This document shows, in pieces, positions 22,934 through 34,064 of a stretch of 64,000 nt of DNA. The position numbers were made by a program, and so were the translations under genes. Within the stretch, counting starts at the first letter, position 1; each line of letters opens with the position of its first letter. The notes below the pieces were generated by a model. That model was not told the origin of the DNA and made no database searches. It saw only the letters and a program-made list of their open reading frames with translations. The DNA is from Chthonomonas calidirosea (GTDB taxonomy: Bacteria > Armatimonadota > Fimbriimonadia > Fimbriimonadales > Fimbriimonadaceae): contig CAMCWC010000010.1 of the NCBI GenBank assembly GCA_945882415.1, positions 62,001 through 126,000 on the forward strand, written 5' to 3'.

Positions 22934-24187
22934 TCAGTTCCGCGCTTGCTTTAGAACCGTCTCAATCGCCTTCTGGAGCTGGTTGTCGCTCTTTGGGTTA
23001 CCGAACTCGGGGTCCTTGTCCAGATCGAGTTCCACGGCGACGCTAGGCTTCAATCCGCCATCAATGTAGATGCCATCCTGATCGACCTTGCGGCCGATGT
23101 CATCTCCGCTCGGCAAGTAGTACTTCGCGATCGTGACCTTCGCGCTGCTCTTGTCCACGAGAGGGAACACGTTCTGGACGCTGGATTTCCCGTAAGAGTG
23201 GGTGCCAACCAACGTTGCCTTGTTGTAGTCCCGCAACACGCCAGCGAAGATTTCGGCCGCGCTTGCAGAGTTCTCGTCCATCAAGACAACCACCGGGTAA
23301 CCGAATGGCCGAACCTCATTGGATGCAGATCGAACGGTTTCATTGAATCCGTTTCGTCCCACCATCTTCACGACGACCTTGTCTGCCACAAATCGGCTCA
23401 ACATGTCAGCCGCGACGTCCAATAGTCCGCCCGGATTGCTGCGCATGTCGATAACAAGGCCCTTTGGCGACTTGCGATCTACCTTATCAAGCTCTCGGTC
23501 AAACTGCATCGTCGTCGGCTCGGCAAACTGCGAAACCGCAATGTAGCCGACCTTCGAATCTTCAAAGAACTTGCTCTCGACCGTCGGCGCGACGATTCGG
23601 GCTCGCTTGATCTTCATCGTCACGGGCTGCTGTTTGCCCTTCTTCGCAACGGTGAGGGTGACGAAGGTGCCTTCCTTGCCCTTGATCAGTAGGACAACGG
23701 CGTCGGTCGGCATCCCGCCAACTTTCTTGCCGTCAACCGCGATGATCACATCGTTGATGCGCAGGCCCGCCGCGTATGCCGGACCATCTTCGAAAACTGC
23801 CGCCGCTCGGACGCCCATCGCGTCATCGGACAATCGAGCGCCGACACCGAAGAAGTTGCCCGTCGTCTCTTCGCTGAACAGCTGAGCCGCCCGCGGTGGG
23901 AAGTACAACGTGTGAGGATCGCCAAGAGAGCTCAGCAGTCCTTGCATTCCGGCAAACCGGAGGTCGTCAGGCTTCACTTGTCGTGAATACTTAAACCGAA
24001 TCTGGTTGTAAGCCTGCTGGAAAACCTGTTCTGGGCTTGCTGCTTTCGCATTCTTGACACCGAGGAGCGAGTTGACCGCTCGAGAATCCACGCCCGAGCC
24101 TGATTGAAGATCTCGCCATGCGAACCCCAAGGATCCGGCACTCAGCGCGGCAACGGCGAACGCAACGTACTTGATTCCGGTTTTCAT
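22934..24187 (-). CDS. C-terminal processing peptidase, S41 family (CtpA-like), catalytically complete
   Basis: A PDZ-containing serine protease of the envelope. N-terminal membrane anchor or signal (VAFAVAALSAGSLGFAW), helical CtpA N-region with SSLGDPHTLYF, PDZ about residues 125-215 (AAVFEDGPAYAAGLRINDVIIAVDG), and tail-protease core: LVIDMRSNPGGLL, then NSASAAEIFAG with the nucleophile (second Ser of SAS) and HSYGKSSVQN with the catalytic Lys 25 residues later and Gln after it. 417 residues. It overlaps the next upstream gene by 4 nt; that gene encodes an S41 homologue without these residues. Likely role: processing or turnover of envelope proteins. Confidence 0.92.
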   Translation of the reverse strand: MKTGIKYVAFAVAALSAGSLGFAWRDLQSGSGVDSRAVNSLLGVKNAKAASPEQVFQQAYNQIRFKYSRQVKPDDLRFAGMQGLLSSLGDPHTLYFPPRAAQLFSEETTGNFFGVGARLSDDAMGVRAAAVFEDGPAYAAGLRINDVIIAVDGKKVGGMPTDAVVLLIKGKEGTFVTLTVAKKGKQQPVTMKIKRARIVAPTVESKFFEDSKVGYIAVSQFAEPTTMQFDRELDKVDRKSPKGLVIDMRSNPGGLLDVAADMLSRFVADKVVVKMVGRNGFNETVRSASNEVRPFGYPVVVLMDENSASAAEIFAGVLRDYNKATLVGTHSYGKSSVQNVFPLVDKSSAKVTIAKYYLPSGDDIGRKVDQDGIYIDGGLKPSVAVELDLDKDPEFGNPKSDNQLQKAIETVLKQARN

Positions 24188-25515
24188 CTCACTTCCTCCG
24201 TCTTATCCGCCATGACAACTTTCGTGCTGGTCACGTTGACTTGGTATTCGCCGATCGGCAAAACGTAGCCCGAGCCATCTGGCAACGGGACGATGTCGAC
24301 CAGCGTCCGATCTCCTCCGGTGAGGCTCCCAACAAGGGTCGCCTTACCCTTCGATTGAAGCGCCAGCGCGAACATTTCCGCTACTCCACGGGTGCTCGAA
24401 TCCACGAGCAGTTCGTACTTGGGTGCGGCAGGGTTTCCTTTTGCGACAACGAGGTTCGTTGGCTCGCTGCCGCGTGCAGTAACAAACTGTCCATAGGTTC
24501 CTTTCGGCGCGACCTTTTCAAGCACGGCTTTCAGCGATTCAAAATCACCGTGGGTGTTGTTTCGAAGATCGATACGAACCTTCGTCTTGCCTTGAAGTTC
24601 CTTCGCGATCCAAGCATCCGCGCCTTTCTGGAAGGCCAACCTCAGATCACCATTTGGAAGAACCGTCATCGGGCTCATCGCGGTCACGGACTTGGTGAGA
24701 TCGGTAGTGCGCTTCTCAGTCCCGCGCTCCCAGACCACCTTCACCTTTCCACTGGTGCCCGTAACCAGTCGCTCCATTGCGCGCATCGGCAACAGTGCTC
24801 TTTCGGTGCGCTCGCGCACTTCTTTGCGGACGAGGTTCAGCTGGCTATAGGTGATCTTCTTGGCTTTGAAGTCGTCTTGGGCCTTCTGGAATTTGATCAG
24901 CAGGTCGGTGTTCACAACCCAGTGGCTGTCGATTTCGTAGGCGACGTCTCCAATCTTGACCCCAGCTTTCGCTGCCGGACTACCTGGGATGACGTTCGAA
25001 ACCATGAGTCGAGGCACTCGGACGCGGGAGACGAGCGCCTCCTCCGCTGTACCTTCTGGAAGAGCGCCTTCAGAATCGGATGCCTTCGCGGCTTGCTTGT
25101 TTGCGGCGCCACGCATGACCATCACAACCTCGACGCCGATGCCTTCGTACTTTCCGGCTCGGGCGTTCTGGAAGCTCGCGAACTGCTTCTTGTCCAGGAA
25201 CATCGCCTTAGGGTCGTTAAGGCTGCCGATCATGCTTCGAATCGCGCCGGAAGCAAGTTTCTGATCGTCCGGAATGGGTTCGACGTACTCGCGCTTCAGG
25301 AGGCGCATGAGTTGGTAGAAATAGTCCCCAGCGGTGTAGCTCGCGCCGTTCGCATCGGTGGATGCGACCAAGCCAACGCCCGAGAAATTCGGCATTTCGG
25401 CTTCAGCCCGTCGGCCCAGGTCCACCCAATCTCGCAAGGCGGCCCCACCAACTGCGGTAAACGCAATAAGCGCCGTCCCTCCAAGCACAACGACCGTTCG
25501 ATTCATTCCTTTCAT
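24184..25515 (-). CDS. S41-family homologue with no catalytic residues (pseudoprotease)
   Basis: Same architecture as the gene after it: membrane anchor (VVVLGGTALIAFTAVGGAAL), helical N-region with SLNDPKAMF, PDZ (MVSNVIPGSPAAKAGVKIGDVAYEID) and an S41-like C-terminal domain. In the core, VDSSTRGVAEMFA aligns without gaps to DENSASAAEIFAG of the neighbour, so the nucleophile position is Gly, and GSLTGGDRTLVD aligns to GTHSYGKSSVQN, putting Asp at the catalytic Lys and Val at the Gln. An insertion of about 60 residues (FKAKKITYSQLNL...VRERTERALLP) sits in or after the PDZ domain. 443 residues. I infer a non-hydrolytic partner or adaptor for the active protease, translated first in the pair. 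Confidence 0.82.
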   Translation of the reverse strand: MKGMNRTVVVLGGTALIAFTAVGGAALRDWVDLGRRAEAEMPNFSGVGLVASTDANGASYTAGDYFYQLMRLLKREYVEPIPDDQKLASGAIRSMIGSLNDPKAMFLDKKQFASFQNARAGKYEGIGVEVVMVMRGAANKQAAKASDSEGALPEGTAEEALVSRVRVPRLMVSNVIPGSPAAKAGVKIGDVAYEIDSHWVVNTDLLIKFQKAQDDFKAKKITYSQLNLVRKEVRERTERALLPMRAMERLVTGTSGKVKVVWERGTEKRTTDLTKSVTAMSPMTVLPNGDLRLAFQKGADAWIAKELQGKTKVRIDLRNNTHGDFESLKAVLEKVAPKGTYGQFVTARGSEPTNLVVAKGNPAAPKYELLVDSSTRGVAEMFALALQSKGKATLVGSLTGGDRTLVDIVPLPDGSGYVLPIGEYQVNVTSTKVVMADKTEEVR

Positions 25516-25556: not shown

Positions 25557-27887
25557 TCAGTCAGTAAGGTCCTTTGCGGCGGCGCGAATCCCGGCAAAGG
25601 GACTAGCTTTGAGCATTTTGACCGTGTCTGCAGGCAACGTGACTTTGCCAGCTTTACTGGCGCTGATTAACTGGAATTGGACGGCTGGATAGGCGTCGGT
25701 AAAGAGATTCTGAATTTCGTCTGCCGAAACCGGCCCAAGCTGCGCAAGTCCACGCAGGCCGTTTGCACGGACGCGCGAATCTGAATCCACGACCGCCAAA
25801 CGGAGCGCATCTCGGTGAGCCTCGGTCGGGGTGTTCGCAAGCGCAACCGAAATTGATAGCCGAACTCCGATGCTGTCGTCTTTGATTCCCCGGTAGCCGT
25901 CTTTTCGAAACTCCGGCACGTTCGACTGAATCAGTTTGAGACAGCTCTTCAATCGGACGGCATCCCACGGTTCATTCACCGCAGACCAGAGCAGCTTCCG
26001 CATCTGATACTCGTCATTCGGATCCGAAGCGTCGGTTACTATTGCCTTCAGCATCGGATCGACCTGGGTGATGTACGCCATTCGAATGATGCCTGCTTCT
26101 CGGCCTTTTAGCTTCGCAAGAGCCTTCAGACCGCCACGTCGCACAGCCGCTCTTCGATCTCCCAAGAGAACAGAAATATAGCCAGCTTCTTTCGGATCCA
26201 CGCCCTGAGCAACCACGAGGGCAGCCTCAACTCTGGCCGCGTCGGTGATTCCAAACTGCATGATGCGGCGCATTTCGGTCGGCGACGTGGCATCGGGTTC
26301 GGAAGCCAGACGTCGAACCGCGAGTTGAGCCACCCGACCCTCGATGCTCGATGCCGCCGAGGTCAAAGCAACGCGCAAAGTCGGACTGAGCGGCCGAGGC
26401 AGCGCCTGAATCGCGTTCATCGCCACTTCCTCTTCCGTATCCTTTAGCGCGGCAATGAAGATATCTTCTGGTGTCTCCGCGCCAAATTTCGTTGCGGCAG
26501 AAATCCTCTGATCAAGTTCGGACAGAGCGGGCTCGGGCAGGTTGGAAGTCGAAGTCGCCACGAGTTTGAAATCGGTCAATCGAACCTCGATCGGACGATT
26601 CTGAATCTTCCCTCTCAAGAACGCTCCCGGAGCCGGCCGAACAGCGATGCTGCTGATCAGGTCTAGCCCGAGGTCCTTGAGTGAAACTTGGACGGTTTGC
26701 CAGGTTCCATTTCGCTCGAACGGGACGGCTTGCCCAAGCTTATCGGTCGCTAGCCGGTCGCTTCCCAAAGTGACCGCCGTCGTACCGTTGAACCAAAGCG
26801 CCACCGGCTCAGGAGTGTCCTGCTTCACCGAAAAGGTTAAGGTCGGGGTTTGCTTCGGATCAATGCCACCGCCAGGCACGACGAGGGATGCTCCGCCGGT
26901 GCGTCCGACGCTCCGCTCGGTAATCGAAAGTACTTGTCCCTTTTCAGGATCTGTGACCAAACTTACCGCGGTATCGGCCGACCGCACGCCAAGCTCAACT
27001 CCGGCAGAACTCGGTACGTCAAACGCGGCCGGAACACCGGAAAACACCGCTAGCTGCTGCTCAATCGTGGGTTCATCAAACGAAAGAACCTTGGCCCATT
27101 CGGCTCCGGCTGGCCACTTGTTTGCGCCTTTTTGCACGCTCCAGAACAGCAACGTCTCACGGACTGCCTGGTCCAACTTGATCCCGAAAGAATGGGGACC
27201 GTAGTAGCCCAACGCAAAAGAAGGTGAATTCCAGATGCCGCCTAGCGGCGCAAACTGGCGCTCAAGGTTGGGCGCAAGAGCAGAGATCACAAACCCAACG
27301 TGGTAAGGACCACGGTATTGCTTGTCTTCCGCATCGAAACTGCCGCCGTTTGTCGCAACCTCAAGCTCGTTCCGCCAGGCTTCGGTTGGCAAACTTGCCA
27401 TGCCAGGTTGGAGGTCAACTCGCTCAATCTCTTCGCGGATTTCAACGTCGGGCTGAAAGTCAACATTCCCGTCCGTTGAAGCGGCAACCTGATTTTTCAG
27501 CCGTACAATTGCGGCCAGCGCTTCATTGACCTGGGCGTCTTCCATGTCCGCCCGACGCAGGCGCAAGGTGCCATCCGCGCTCGGCTGGAGCCCATCGACC
27601 CTCGGATAGATGATGAATTTGGCTCGAAGGACCGTCGCTCCGGCCTTAGGCAGCTTTCCGACCAACTGATCCGGTCGATCAAGGATGAAGATTCGTTGCG
27701 GTTCCCCTTTGAGGTCGCCCCAGCCGCTCCAGGCATCAATGGCCCCGTCATAGTCGAGGTTGGTAGTGGACGCATACGACACTTCGACGGTGCGTCCACC
27801 GATCTTTACGCTCACCGGAGCGGCTTGTTGAGGGTCCAGCACCCCCGGCATCAGGACCGAGGTCGCGAGGATTCCTATCAGATTCAT
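25557..27887 (-). CDS. Large secreted protein with C-terminal HEAT-like repeats
   Basis: 776 residues, short signal peptide (MNLIGILATSVLMPGVLDPQQA). Residues about 20-270: beta-rich with a tryptophan cluster (GAIDAWSGWGDL), reminiscent of DNRLRE-type structural modules. About 280-470: beta-sandwich with carbohydrate-binding-module-like strings (GQVLSITERSVGRTGGASLVVPGGG; ALWFNGTTAVTL). About 500-776: helical repeats with HEAT-like pairs (for example KALAKLKGREAGIIR, RANGLRGLAQLGPVSADE). It lies 42 nt upstream of the S41 pair in the same direction and 2 nt after the MTAP gene. Possibly a scaffold or substrate for that protease pair; no catalytic domain is recognisable. Confidence 0.72.
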   Translation of the reverse strand: MNLIGILATSVLMPGVLDPQQAAPVSVKIGGRTVEVSYASTTNLDYDGAIDAWSGWGDLKGEPQRIFILDRPDQLVGKLPKAGATVLRAKFIIYPRVDGLQPSADGTLRLRRADMEDAQVNEALAAIVRLKNQVAASTDGNVDFQPDVEIREEIERVDLQPGMASLPTEAWRNELEVATNGGSFDAEDKQYRGPYHVGFVISALAPNLERQFAPLGGIWNSPSFALGYYGPHSFGIKLDQAVRETLLFWSVQKGANKWPAGAEWAKVLSFDEPTIEQQLAVFSGVPAAFDVPSSAGVELGVRSADTAVSLVTDPEKGQVLSITERSVGRTGGASLVVPGGGIDPKQTPTLTFSVKQDTPEPVALWFNGTTAVTLGSDRLATDKLGQAVPFERNGTWQTVQVSLKDLGLDLISSIAVRPAPGAFLRGKIQNRPIEVRLTDFKLVATSTSNLPEPALSELDQRISAATKFGAETPEDIFIAALKDTEEEVAMNAIQALPRPLSPTLRVALTSAASSIEGRVAQLAVRRLASEPDATSPTEMRRIMQFGITDAARVEAALVVAQGVDPKEAGYISVLLGDRRAAVRRGGLKALAKLKGREAGIIRMAYITQVDPMLKAIVTDASDPNDEYQMRKLLWSAVNEPWDAVRLKSCLKLIQSNVPEFRKDGYRGIKDDSIGVRLSISVALANTPTEAHRDALRLAVVDSDSRVRANGLRGLAQLGPVSADEIQNLFTDAYPAVQFQLISASKAGKVTLPADTVKMLKASPFAGIRAAAKDLTD

Positions 27888-30732: not shown

Positions 30733-31479
30733 TCACTTAATCAAGCTGCATAGGCGAATTGCCGCAACCTTAAGATTCTCGGTCGGCCGCTCTCCCATGA
30801 GGAAAACCGTGTAGTTTGGCTTGTACCAACCGATGCAGTTCGCCTTACCGACGTGCCCAACCATGTACTTGCCGTCTTCGCCAGACGGGGTCATTCCGGT
30901 CAATGGCACTTGTCCTTCAACCGCAATCAAGACAATCTGGCCCTCGCCGTCTTTAATCCAGTGTCGCTCGACCATCTTGCCGCCAGACAACCCTTTCTCC
31001 ATGGCCAGTAGCTCGAGCCGGTCTGGTCGAGTTGCTTCACCCGCGAAGTCAAAGACGCCTTCAACCCATCGCTGAACTTCGGCCGGTGTTGAGGTCTGCT
31101 GGCGATTGGGAACGAATCCCGCCATCATTTCCGTGATTGCCGTGCCGTTCGGGTTCGAATTGCCATTCAGACGCTGCCAGCCGCCGCCGACCACGATCAT
31201 CAGAATGAGCGACGCACAGAGCGCCCAGGCATAGCGAGACACAAAACTTTCGGTTCGGCGAGCGCTTTCAATCTCGACGATGCGCCCCTTACATTTCTTC
31301 CAGGCATCTTCGCATTCCATGCCGTAATTGAGGTTCACCATGGCCGACTTCTGGGCCTGAACCAGGGCAACTTGTTTACGAAGCTCGGCATCCTGACTCA
31401 TCAGGGCTTCAAATGCCGTCTTCTCTTCCGGGCTAAGTTCCCGGTCTACGTAGGCGTGTAGCGTTTCCACGTCTCTCAT
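30733..31479 (-). CDS. Anti-sigma factor-like membrane protein
   Basis: Overlaps the ECF sigma gene by 4 nt and lies downstream of it, the usual position for its anti-sigma. 248 residues: a cytosolic N-terminal helical domain (RDVETLHAYVDRELSPEEKTAFEALMSQDAELRKQV, the typical anti-sigma opening), a single transmembrane helix (about 83-101), and an extracytoplasmic sensor domain of about 140 residues (MVERHWIKDGEGQIVLIAVEGQVPL). The HxxxCxxC zinc motif of ZAS anti-sigmas is absent; only an isolated Cys pair (MECEDAWKKCK) occurs. It ends 41 nt from the tRNA, which is on the opposite strand. Confidence 0.8.
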   Translation of the reverse strand: MRDVETLHAYVDRELSPEEKTAFEALMSQDAELRKQVALVQAQKSAMVNLNYGMECEDAWKKCKGRIVEIESARRTESFVSRYAWALCASLILMIVVGGGWQRLNGNSNPNGTAITEMMAGFVPNRQQTSTPAEVQRWVEGVFDFAGEATRPDRLELLAMEKGLSGGKMVERHWIKDGEGQIVLIAVEGQVPLTGMTPSGEDGKYMVGHVGKANCIGWYKPNYTVFLMGERPTENLKVAAIRLCSLIK

Positions 31480-32042
31480 TCGATCTCCATTCCTTCTTTA
31501 ACGATGCCTTCACGAAGGGCATATTCTGCCAGGGCGGTTCGGAGCAGAGCGCGACCTCGTGCCAGTCGAGATCGGACGGTGCCGATAGGCACATCCGTCG
31601 CGTCGGCAATCTCTTGATAGCTCAGCCCTTCAATGTCGCTCAAAATTACAGTAATCCTAAAATCTGCTGGGACCTTTGAAAGTGCTTCTTCGACTTCCGC
31701 CCCAAGTGCTTCATCAAAAAGCGCCCGATCTGGAAGGACCGTTTCCGCTGCCGTAGGTTCAACTGCTCCATCTTCATCAAGCGAACCCATATGTGGGCCC
31801 CGCTGTTGACGACGGTATTTGTTGATGTACAGATTCGTTACTATTCGCAACAGCCAAGCCTTGAAGTTCGTTCCATCAAATCGATCGAACGCCTCGTAGG
31901 CTCGCACGATGGCTTCTTGGCAAAGGTCTTCCGCTTCCTCACGAGATCTGGTGAGGCGAAGTGCGGTGCCGAAGACAGACGGAAAGACACTTTCAGCGTA
32001 GCGTTCGAATGCGTCCCGTTTATCCCGTCTGCCGAAGAGCAT
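31476..32042 (-). CDS. ECF-subfamily RNA polymerase sigma factor
   Basis: 188 residues from ATG 32042 (MLFGRRDKRDAFERY). Region 2: TRSREEAEDLCQEAIVRAYEAFDRFDGTNFKAWLLRIVTNLYINKYRR (DNA and core binding). Region 4: LPDRALFDEALG linker, then VPADFRITVILSDIEGLSYQEIADATDVPIGTVRSRLARGRALLR with a helix-turn-helix. The frame is open 36 bases upstream, from a GTG at 32078. Co-transcribed with its putative anti-sigma. The start here and the overlapping partner argue for a membrane-signalled sigma; regulon unknown. Confidence 0.92.
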   Translation of the reverse strand: MLFGRRDKRDAFERYAESVFPSVFGTALRLTRSREEAEDLCQEAIVRAYEAFDRFDGTNFKAWLLRIVTNLYINKYRRQQRGPHMGSLDEDGAVEPTAAETVLPDRALFDEALGAEVEEALSKVPADFRITVILSDIEGLSYQEIADATDVPIGTVRSRLARGRALLRTALAEYALREGIVKEGMEIE

Positions 32043-32084
32043 TAATCGGCGGGAGAATACCCCTGCCCTACAGGCCACTTGGGA

Positions 32085-32792
32085 CTACAGGAGCCGATAC
32101 AAAAATGCCGCACTTGCGGCCCGAGGCATTTCTGGTAGCGGTTTGCCGCGGGGTTGCTCGGCCAGCCGCCCAACTTCGATTTGGAACTGCTGGTCCTCCG
32201 CTAAGAATTTTTCAACGTAAGCGCGGGCCGCCTTTCGTCCACACTCGGCAAGCAACAGCTCAATTGCCGTTCCGTGACCGATCAACGGCAAACCTGCGCC
32301 CATCAAGTTCGCTTCTAACTGTTCAGGATCCTCAAACTCGGCGAACCAGGGGATTGCCGTGGCTTGGATATGGGAGAGGAGTTCCGCATACTCGTACGTC
32401 CGGCCCTTGCACCACCAAACAAAGTATGAAGGCGGAAGTTCGAGTGCACCGATATCCGATGAGGCCACCAGGATAGGCGCGGCACTGGCCGGAGTCCAAT
32501 ACTTTTCTCGAACGGCGCGAATGTTGCGGTGGCAAAGATGGATGCGCAGGCGCACGGGAATCGCCGCAGCCTCGGTCTCATTCACGTCAAGCAGAATTTC
32601 GCAAATCCAGTCGTCTCGTCGCCGTTCGAACTGCGGAAGACCGCCGTTGTGAAAGAGCCTAAAGCCCGATTGCCAGAGCCCACCGGCAATGAAATGGCTT
32701 GCGCCCTGACGAATCTTGGGAATGGGAGCCAAAGGCGAGCCCGGCTCGAACTCGCGTTGCCACTCGTCTGCGTGCCGGTAGGTTTTCCGCAT
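32085..32792 (-). CDS. Conserved-looking hypothetical protein
   Basis: 235 residues with no family that I recognise. Features: a Trp/Arg-rich start (MRKTYRHADEWQREFEP), a central WWCKGRTYEYAELLSHIQ stretch that could be a small alpha-helical domain, and no signal peptide or membrane helix, so cytosolic. Composition and codon use match the neighbours. It lies 6 nt from the cyclase-like gene upstream and 42 nt from the sigma gene downstream. Possibly one transcript with both. Confidence 0.6.
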   Translation of the reverse strand: MRKTYRHADEWQREFEPGSPLAPIPKIRQGASHFIAGGLWQSGFRLFHNGGLPQFERRRDDWICEILLDVNETEAAAIPVRLRIHLCHRNIRAVREKYWTPASAAPILVASSDIGALELPPSYFVWWCKGRTYEYAELLSHIQATAIPWFAEFEDPEQLEANLMGAGLPLIGHGTAIELLLAECGRKAARAYVEKFLAEDQQFQIEVGRLAEQPRGKPLPEMPRAASAAFLYRLL

Positions 32793-32798
32793 GGAAAA

Positions 32799-34064
32799 TC
32801 AAACCGCCGGCAGCGGCGGAGTTTGCTCAGCCGAACCCGTCGTGACCATCGCCTTCGGCCGCCAGATTGCCGCCCGGGTATCTGCCGCCTCGATCATCTC
32901 TTCCCCAACTGCGGTTGCTCCACCCGGCAGGTACATTACGCTGGCTTCGGTTACCGCCACACCGCCCGGAGGGCAGTACTTCTGGATCGTAGCCGCGACA
33001 TCGATCACGTGTGAGAAGTTGAGCGACTTGATGTCTCCGCCCTGGGGCGTAACCACCGTTCCGGTATGAACGCCGCACCGCAAGGTGATCGGCGACCCCA
33101 ATCGGTTTCGGAACGTGTTGAGCTCAAACAACCCGGACTGAATCGTCTTAGCCGCGGCAAAGGCCTGATGCGGATGATCAAACGCACAAGTCACGCCATC
33201 ACCCGCCGTGCTGTGAACACGACCGCCGTACCGCACCGTGATGCGCTCCACGTACCCGTGGTATTCGGTGAAGGTGTATTCCACCGCCAGCAGGTCTGCT
33301 TTCAGCTTCATCTTCGTCGAACCCACGATATCGACGCTGAGGAACGTAACGCTCTGCTCACCGCTCCGAAGTCGGTCCTGCAGCTCAACGAGCTGAGAAA
33401 GCAGTTCTTGACGCTCCTTGATCGGGTCCCGCAAGCCGAGACTGTCACGGTTGTTTTCAACCGCCTTCTTGAGCAGGGCGCCGGCAATGCCACCGCCAAT
33501 CATGATTGGCAAAATCGCCGGAGCATAAATCTTCATCGCCGACTGCATCAGCAACGAAAACACCGCGTACATTCCGAAGAACGCACCGCCAAGAATGGCT
33601 CCATTCACACCGGCCCACTTAACATCTTTCGAAAGTGCGACCTGATACAAGCCGAGCGAAAGCGCGATGAGGCCGACCATGCTGAGCACGCCGTATTGGC
33701 TGACCGAACTCCCGAGTCGGTACTCCAAGGCAAACAGGAAGGCGCACACCGTCGCCATGGTGCCAACGCCGACCATGCGGCGCGTTTCTGGGTCCAGCGT
33801 GAGGAACTGTGCACGCAGGTTGGTAAGCCGACTCCGGTTTTCCTTTTCGGCACGGACCTTGACCGCAAGTCGAACGTACTCGGTTGGCGCACCGGTGGCT
33901 TCGGCGACCGCCTGAATGGCGTCGTCGTCAAGCACTCCTCCGTTCGACATCCGCAGGCGCTCTGCGAGCGCCAGCATCTGGTCAACCGTGTCTTCGGTGA
34001 GGTCAAATTGCCCCCCCGAACCATCCGCTAGCCTCGTTTGCAGCGGGTTTAAATCTGAACTCAT
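32799..34064 (-). CDS. Membrane protein with degenerate class III nucleotidyl cyclase domain
   Basis: 421 residues. N-terminal cytosolic helices (about 20-75), four transmembrane helices between about 98 and 198, a coiled-coil linker (about 212-236, ELLSQLVELQDRLRSG), and a class III cyclase fold from about 239. The two metal aspartates are kept (Asp245 in VDIVGST; Asp289 in STAGDG). Other catalytic positions, numbered as in Rv1625c, are lost: the purine-selecting Lys is Ser285, the second selecting Asp is Leu348, and the transition-state Asn/Arg are Asp355/Thr359. A catalytically weak or inactive signalling scaffold is likely. Divergent from the cytochrome gene. Confidence 0.78.
   Translation of the reverse strand: MSSDLNPLQTRLADGSGGQFDLTEDTVDQMLALAERLRMSNGGVLDDDAIQAVAEATGAPTEYVRLAVKVRAEKENRSRLTNLRAQFLTLDPETRRMVGVGTMATVCAFLFALEYRLGSSVSQYGVLSMVGLIALSLGLYQVALSKDVKWAGVNGAILGGAFFGMYAVFSLLMQSAMKIYAPAILPIMIGGGIAGALLKKAVENNRDSLGLRDPIKERQELLSQLVELQDRLRSGEQSVTFLSVDIVGSTKMKLKADLLAVEYTFTEYHGYVERITVRYGGRVHSTAGDGVTCAFDHPHQAFAAAKTIQSGLFELNTFRNRLGSPITLRCGVHTGTVVTPQGGDIKSLNFSHVIDVAATIQKYCPPGGVAVTEASVMYLPGGATAVGEEMIEAADTRAAIWRPKAMVTTGSAEQTPPLPAV

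Follow-up and report, generated by a model that had tools for sequence, protein, structure and literature searches.

The window (the whole stretch of 64,000 nucleotides that was analyzed) contains two overlapping genes of the S41 family, here called B (upstream) and A (downstream). A is predicted to be an active C-terminal processing protease (CTP), while B is rather probably its non-proteolytic S41 paralogue, which originated from one duplication of the neighboring A and has been retained as a partner (subunit or adaptor) of A. The evidence comes from the catalytic loss observed in all B proteins, the co-conservation and adjacency of the two genes, the single origin of B and the purifying selection acting on it, the regional constraint and the operon context; the physical contact between A and B, the direction of its effect and the substrates are what we infer.

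Two S41 genes in the window

A preliminary description of this DNA had reported two S41 open reading frames with a 4-nt ATGA overlap. Both are confirmed here, on the minus strand, together with the residues it had named: Gly, Asp and Val of the upstream copy at the Ser, Lys and Gln sites are G377, D402 and V406 by alignment, and the S-K-Q pattern of the downstream copy is S309-K334-Q338, equivalent to the CtpB triad. The features are as follows.

24184..25515 (-), gene B, S41 pseudoprotease, 443 aa; hydrophobic N-terminal anchor, N-terminal dimerization-like region, PDZ domain with an insert, degenerate S41 core
22934..24187 (-), gene A, active-type C-terminal processing protease, 417 aa; S309/K334/Q338 intact
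24184..24187 (-), ATGA overlap of 4 nt, B stop and A start
24385..24387 (-), B codon 377 (Gly), at the catalytic Ser position by alignment with A
24310..24312 (-), B codon 402 (Asp), at the catalytic Lys position by alignment with A
24298..24300 (-), B codon 406 (Val), at the catalytic Gln position by alignment with A
23261..23263 (-), A codon 309, catalytic Ser, equivalent to CtpB Ser309
23186..23188 (-), A codon 334, catalytic Lys, equivalent to CtpB Lys334
23174..23176 (-), A codon 338, triad Gln, equivalent to CtpB Gln338
25186..25320 (-), B residues 66-110, region like the CtpB N-terminal (dimerization) domain (PF22694, 28.3 bits, cut-off 27)
23903..24037 (-), A residues 51-95, N-terminal dimerization-like region (PF22694, 24.2 bits, slightly below the cut-off of 27)
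25135..25143 (-), B residues 125-127 (GIG), retained PDZ carboxylate-binding loop (loop role as described for CtpB, PMC3808539)
24769..24918 (-), B residues 200-249, stretch with the PDZ insert, a trait of the B family located after W199 (from the span lengths in B and A)

By family profiles and its S-K-Q residues, A is an ordinary S41A CTP with predicted activity: the profile search yields 286.1 bits for TIGR00225 (cut-off 218.6) and 154.5 bits for PF03572, and the PDZ domain, located N-terminal to the catalytic domain, matches PF13180, PF17820 and PF00595, all above their cut-offs. B also has an S41 domain by sequence (PF03572, 49.3 bits, above the cut-off of 24), its TIGR00225 score of 91.7 bits is below the subfamily cut-off of 218.6, and its Pfam PDZ matches are slightly under the cut-offs. 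Common to both proteins are a hydrophobic N terminus as well as PDZ and S41 domains; a region similar to the N-terminal domain of CtpB scores above the profile cut-off in B and slightly below it in A. In the BLASTP alignment A and B share 22% identity (E 2e-9) with 24% gaps over the whole length, the PDZ parts differing by a large insert, while the catalytic stretch (A 301-356, B 369-424) is gap-free, with SAS replaced by TRG, YGK by GGD, and VQ by LV. Hence the core without gaps that had been claimed for the pair exists in the active-site segment, but does not extend to the pair as a whole.

A scan for promoters found no site on either strand. The AlphaFold2 model of B, built from a two-row alignment (the window and its 92% relative, locus L039), has pLDDT of 33.7 and pTM of 0.20, and no claim about the fold rests on it. 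With B as the query, the search of genome contigs returned this 92% relative as the single locus, and the search of plasmids just 13 distant S41 records. Four more S41 domains are found in the window's genome, on contigs C2, C6, C7 and C12 (L003-L006), in ORFs of about 1050-1150 aa that are perhaps tricorn-like.

Distribution and linkage of the pair

A and B of the window were searched for in 101 genomes (the window's genome and its relatives), and a B profile in 251 genomes across the phylum; 181 loci (L040-L220) were fetched, and family profiles built from the first set were used for calling B and A. The loci were recruited by matches to B or A, so that the counts below measure linkage and not natural frequency. 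Three rows were dropped, being an opposite-strand ORF (L054, 7564-8643), a third S41-like gene (L057, 7563-8720, genome G026) and another S41 protein (L111, genome G040). The third S41-like gene, on the plus strand right after A, carries S-D-T at the catalytic columns and is possibly another dead copy.

B is present in 156 loci, with A directly downstream on the same strand in 150 of them. In one more locus (L137) A also directly follows B, initially missed since the A ORF had been called with a long 5' extension, and the remaining five loci are cut by a contig edge or have the frame broken at the contig end. The linkage of the two copies is thus borne out, as every B on a long enough contig has A after it on the same strand, and in no case has B been found apart from A, though the neighbors of the pair change between families. 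Both genes reside on one strand of one contig in 152 genomes from 22 families of the window's phylum. In the order of the window, both genes are on one contig in 84 of 89 genomes, the five exceptions being three incomplete assemblies (65-72% complete), a pair split over two contigs in G022 and a contig edge in G078. A B-profile match is also retained in two genomes of 1.5 Mb, G047 and G249; in the former the B-A pair could be read, with G-K-K at the catalytic columns of B.

The junction between B and A is an overlap or a gap of 0-30 nt in 141 of the 150 loci. The 4-nt overlap type dominates in families f1-f5 (72 of 83 junctions); elsewhere it is found in 10 of 67 junctions, and a gap of 0-30 nt in 45 of 67.

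At the same time, 22 genomes from 18 families have A and no B, hence A can work alone, and not all of the phylum has the pair. These are 22 of 26 B-less loci, the other four (L108 with no A, L110 at the contig start of the split G022, L111, and L220 at a contig edge) not being counted as A-only; 20 regions were fetched for the pairless genomes of the B-profile search, family f23 being left out. The preliminary description had held that relatives with the active copy alone would speak against a partnership: such relatives exist in these 18 other families, so that this objection holds in part; in the window's own order, the genomes lacking the complete pair on one contig are the five incomplete or split ones listed above.

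Catalytic residues

All three columns can be read in 155 B proteins, and none of these has the S-K-Q combination, which is present in each of the 173 readable A; rows with gaps at catalytic columns (two of B, three of A) are not part of these counts. Such conservation excludes coincidence. Individual residues are sometimes kept in B (Ser in 12 proteins, Lys in 3, Gln in 43), but Ser and Lys never together. The lack of a complete Ser-Lys catalytic pair, both in the window and in the family, is the reason why B is best called a non-proteolytic S41 homologue, and not a family protease. The Gln may matter less, since the Q331A substitution in CtpA of Pseudomonas aeruginosa has only a minor effect (PMC11021448), and thus the argument for inactivity rests on Ser and Lys.

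The Lys column is occupied by Asp in 64% of B. Moreover, nine B proteins from families f10 and f17 are in the S-D-Q state, with Asp at the Lys column while Ser and Gln persist. As Asp occurs there even in B retaining both other residues, it was probably the catalytic Lys that was lost first, in most cases to Asp.

The remodelled PDZ domain of B

The Gly pair of the carboxylate-binding loop is kept in B (153 of 153 and 152 of 153 proteins read), and the GIG loop is among the columns that are near-invariant across 154 B. Another column of the domain differs: Arg or Lys occupies it in 172 of 173 A proteins, and Thr, Ser, Leu and others in B. By our reading of the alignment, this column corresponds to Arg168 of CtpB, its substrate-sensing residue (PMC3808539). 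The span between W199 and L250 has a median length of 51 residues in B and 13 in A, which gives an insert of about 38 residues; Trp is found at the W199 position in 126 of 154 B, and residues 198-266 are identical in B of the window and its 92% relative.

Gene neighborhoods

In the family of the window, the pair is preceded by genes encoding a nucleoside phosphorylase (PF01048), a HEAT-repeat protein and, often, a putative RpiB-like protein. The HEAT-repeat protein of the window (25557-27887, minus strand, 776 aa), preceding the pair, is conserved in most of the family and has about 1225 aa in f5. Downstream of the pair there is an 870-aa protein in f5, and a putative RpiB with an HflX-like GTPase in f2. 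Farther along the window (30733-34064, minus strand) genes for an ECF-type sigma factor, an adenylate/guanylate cyclase-domain protein and a zf-HC2-like protein (slightly under the cut-off) lie close together.

A different context is seen in families f10, f11, f16 and f22 (8 loci), where an EnvC-like gene immediately precedes B, and FtsX and then an FtsE-like ATPase are encoded farther upstream, where the contig allows. In one of these loci (L102) the EnvC-like protein combines M23 with a PcsB-type coiled coil, and FtsX matches PF18075. No EnvC-like gene is found close upstream in the 84 other B loci scored outside f1. Among lone-A loci, the EnvC-like gene precedes A in 18 of 22 (L220 at a contig edge being left out), which makes it likely that ftsE-ftsX-envC-ctp is the ancestral order, the place of B being between envC and ctp. 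A Priestia record similarly has a peptidoglycan DD-metalloendopeptidase gene immediately before the S41 gene.

The window's genome has an intact ftsE-ftsX-envC on contig 2, apart from B-A on contig 10. No S41 gene follows ftsE-ftsX-envC in the stretch fetched from contig 2, the S41 places of that contig being far off; B and A have thus moved together.

One lone CTP (L107, 4008-5441, minus strand, genome G098) has a C-terminal TPR motif (PF00515, residues 400-433). It may represent a fused adaptor, since the CTP adaptors NlpI and LbcA carry TPR repeats (PMC11021448).

Origin of B and selection

A tree was constructed by a quick method from 132 rows chosen with per-family limits (53 B, 53 paired A, 21 lone A and 5 outgroup CTPs from plasmid records). 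A phylogeny of S41 pairs in relatives had been proposed as a check, and here all B form one clade (SH-aLRT 100); judged from the sequences, B has a single origin. The grouping of most families is similar in the A and the B parts of the tree. The B clade groups with A of the pairless genome G101 (support 85), and A of f1 and f5 are at the base of the tree, perhaps due to long-branch attraction. The tree is compatible both with B present at the base of the phylum and subsequently lost, and with B gained later.

B evolves faster than A, as seen from the tree and from dN/dS, and is under purifying selection by sequence comparison: of 15 close comparisons, 13 give B a dN/dS of 0.03-0.19, one gives 0.43 and one has no defined value. 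B has the higher dN/dS in all 12 comparisons with values defined for both A and B, though these ratios are rough, as several dS values are above 1. The ratio of mean column entropies, B to A, calculated for 149 genomes with both genes, is lowest in the N-terminal dimerization region (1.05), followed by the PDZ domain (1.18), the cap/core (1.28), the C-terminal part (1.51) and the active-site segment (1.73). Thus selection has been released at the active site of B, and not at its dimerization region. A region-wise mirror-tree test (119 genomes, thinned from 147 with both genes) gives raw correlations of 0.46-0.64 and small partial correlations, the one between the dimerization regions (0.112) not being the highest; this is compatible with contact through that region as well as with its absence.

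Possible role of B

Following the loss of the catalytic Lys (usually to Asp), and then of Ser and Gln, B would act together with A, both being membrane-anchored envelope proteins presumably produced from one transcript. B may pair with A via the conserved N-terminal helical dimerization region, and its PDZ domain, with the loop kept, the activating Arg lost and the helical insert gained, could recruit or position substrate C termini or an envelope protein, so that A would cut, while B would recruit, orient or hold. The dimer is suggested by the fact that the inactive B keeps the dimerization region and a modified PDZ domain, and by the dimer architecture of CtpB and CtpA. Possible substrates are cell-wall hydrolases or their activators, as suggested by the ftsE-ftsX-envC-B-A order in several families. 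The view put forward in the preliminary description, of an inactivated S41 copy partnered with an active one, is partly supported, by the inactivation of B and its linkage to A.

Linkage and purifying selection would be expected, too, if B had a function of its own in the pathway of A without touching it. In particular, B could serve in the envelope as a separate non-proteolytic scaffold or as a PDZ receptor, sharing a transcript with A because both take part in cell-wall remodelling, but never complexed with it. We consider this unlikely, though deserving attention: B has kept the PDZ domain and the anchor and gained a PDZ insert of its own, the constraint pattern by itself needs no contact with A, and the mirror-tree test shows no coevolution specific for the dimerization region, but B is never away from A in 156 loci despite the changing neighbors, and the dimerization region is equally conserved in B and A. 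Another role for B would be that of an inhibitor, titrating A into inactive heterodimers or keeping A shut until a signal. The PDZ domain and the partner subunit control opening in CtpB and CtpA (PMC3808539, PMC11021448), and a B-containing dimer might be locked, since the activating Arg is absent from B; still, the tight overlap of the genes suggests a fixed ratio of the two proteins and not a brake that can be tuned, and the present data do not separate inhibition from activation. We regard such a role as distinctly improbable.

It is highly improbable that B is still an enzyme with a shifted catalytic site. Judged from its sequence, B retains the S41 fold, one Gly of the oxyanion hole is kept in 150 of 154 proteins, and three of 155 B have Lys at the Lys column, but no column of Ser, Lys, His or Cys able to rebuild an active site is conserved in more than 75% of B (the highest, Ser in the C-terminal part, reaches 75%), and the near-invariant Thr of B aligns with the first Ser of SAS, where A too has Ser or Thr. 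Hence a relocated active site in the upstream copy, which would have contradicted its inactivation, is unsupported by residue conservation, and B is a true S41 pseudoprotease. Hardly any credence is due to B as a decaying, pseudogene-like remnant of a tandem duplication: its catalytic residues are gone and it evolves faster than A, but L042 is the sole frame-broken B among the fetched loci, dN/dS is far below 1, and near-invariant columns (the GIG loop, D316) persist across 154 B.

The partnership of B with A could be taken further, to an obligate heteromeric CTP, where an ancient dead subunit of single origin fixes the asymmetry seen in CtpA, and the remodelled PDZ domain picks cell-wall-related substrates at the division machinery. 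This extension is possible, but falls short of being probable, and the 22 genomes with A and no B argue against obligate pairing. Control of CTPs is thought to be exerted by their own PDZ domains or by unrelated adaptors (NlpI, LbcA), and a conserved dead paralogue, acting as a subunit, would be a third mode. The 152 natural pairs, the 22 pairless genomes and the B intermediates missing just the Lys form a test system for the change from a protease to a regulator.

Comparison with known systems

The best PDB relatives of A are the structures of Bacillus subtilis CtpB (4c2c-4c2h), aligned over residues 56-369 at E about 1e-56, with identical numbering of the triad Ser309/Lys334/Gln338 (PMC3808539). 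CtpB is a ring-like homodimer, which dimerizes via N-terminal helices and has PDZ domains gating the tunnel (PMC3808539), whereas here a dead paralogue is encoded beside A. A region resembling the N-terminal dimerization domain of CtpB is seen in B and, slightly below the profile cut-off, in A; the C-terminal dimerization domain of CtpB was not found in A by sequence, the match ending at residue 369 of 417.

CtpA of P. aeruginosa, an envelope CTP functioning with LbcA, forms an asymmetric dimer and degrades cell-wall hydrolases; LbcA binds the same N-terminal region of CtpA, and only one CtpA per dimer is activated (PMC11021448). There the asymmetry is imposed on identical subunits by a TPR lipoprotein, while in B-A it would be fixed in sequence by the dead paralogue.

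The nearest precedent is MamE/MamO of magnetotactic bacteria, like B-A an active protease with a catalytically degenerate paralogue: MamO, whose catalytic triad is dispensable, promotes MamE-dependent proteolysis by being present, and in the authors' view selection has favored pairs of an active and an inactive copy (PMC4794232). These proteins belong to HtrA (trypsin-like) and not to S41, MamO binds metal and needs the TauE domain, and physical contact was undetected there as well (PMC4794232). As expected for a MamO-like role, a degenerate active site in a conserved domain and linkage to the active copy across lineages are both found for B.

The ftsE-ftsX-envC-ctp type operons provide the same neighbors for lone A and, in four families, for B-A, from which they differ in that envC is followed by the protease gene with no inactive S41 gene in between. 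RBP3 (interphotoreceptor retinoid-binding protein), a non-proteolytic retinoid carrier of animals with S41-like modules, is a weak PDB match of both A and B; RBP3 is not known to have a PDZ-CTP partner. A keyword search of the literature, with most subscription papers outside its coverage, came upon no example of an S41 pseudoprotease that forms a pair with its active paralogue. Pairs of dead and live paralogues are a known kind, of which the bacterial CTP example appears, within this coverage, to be new.
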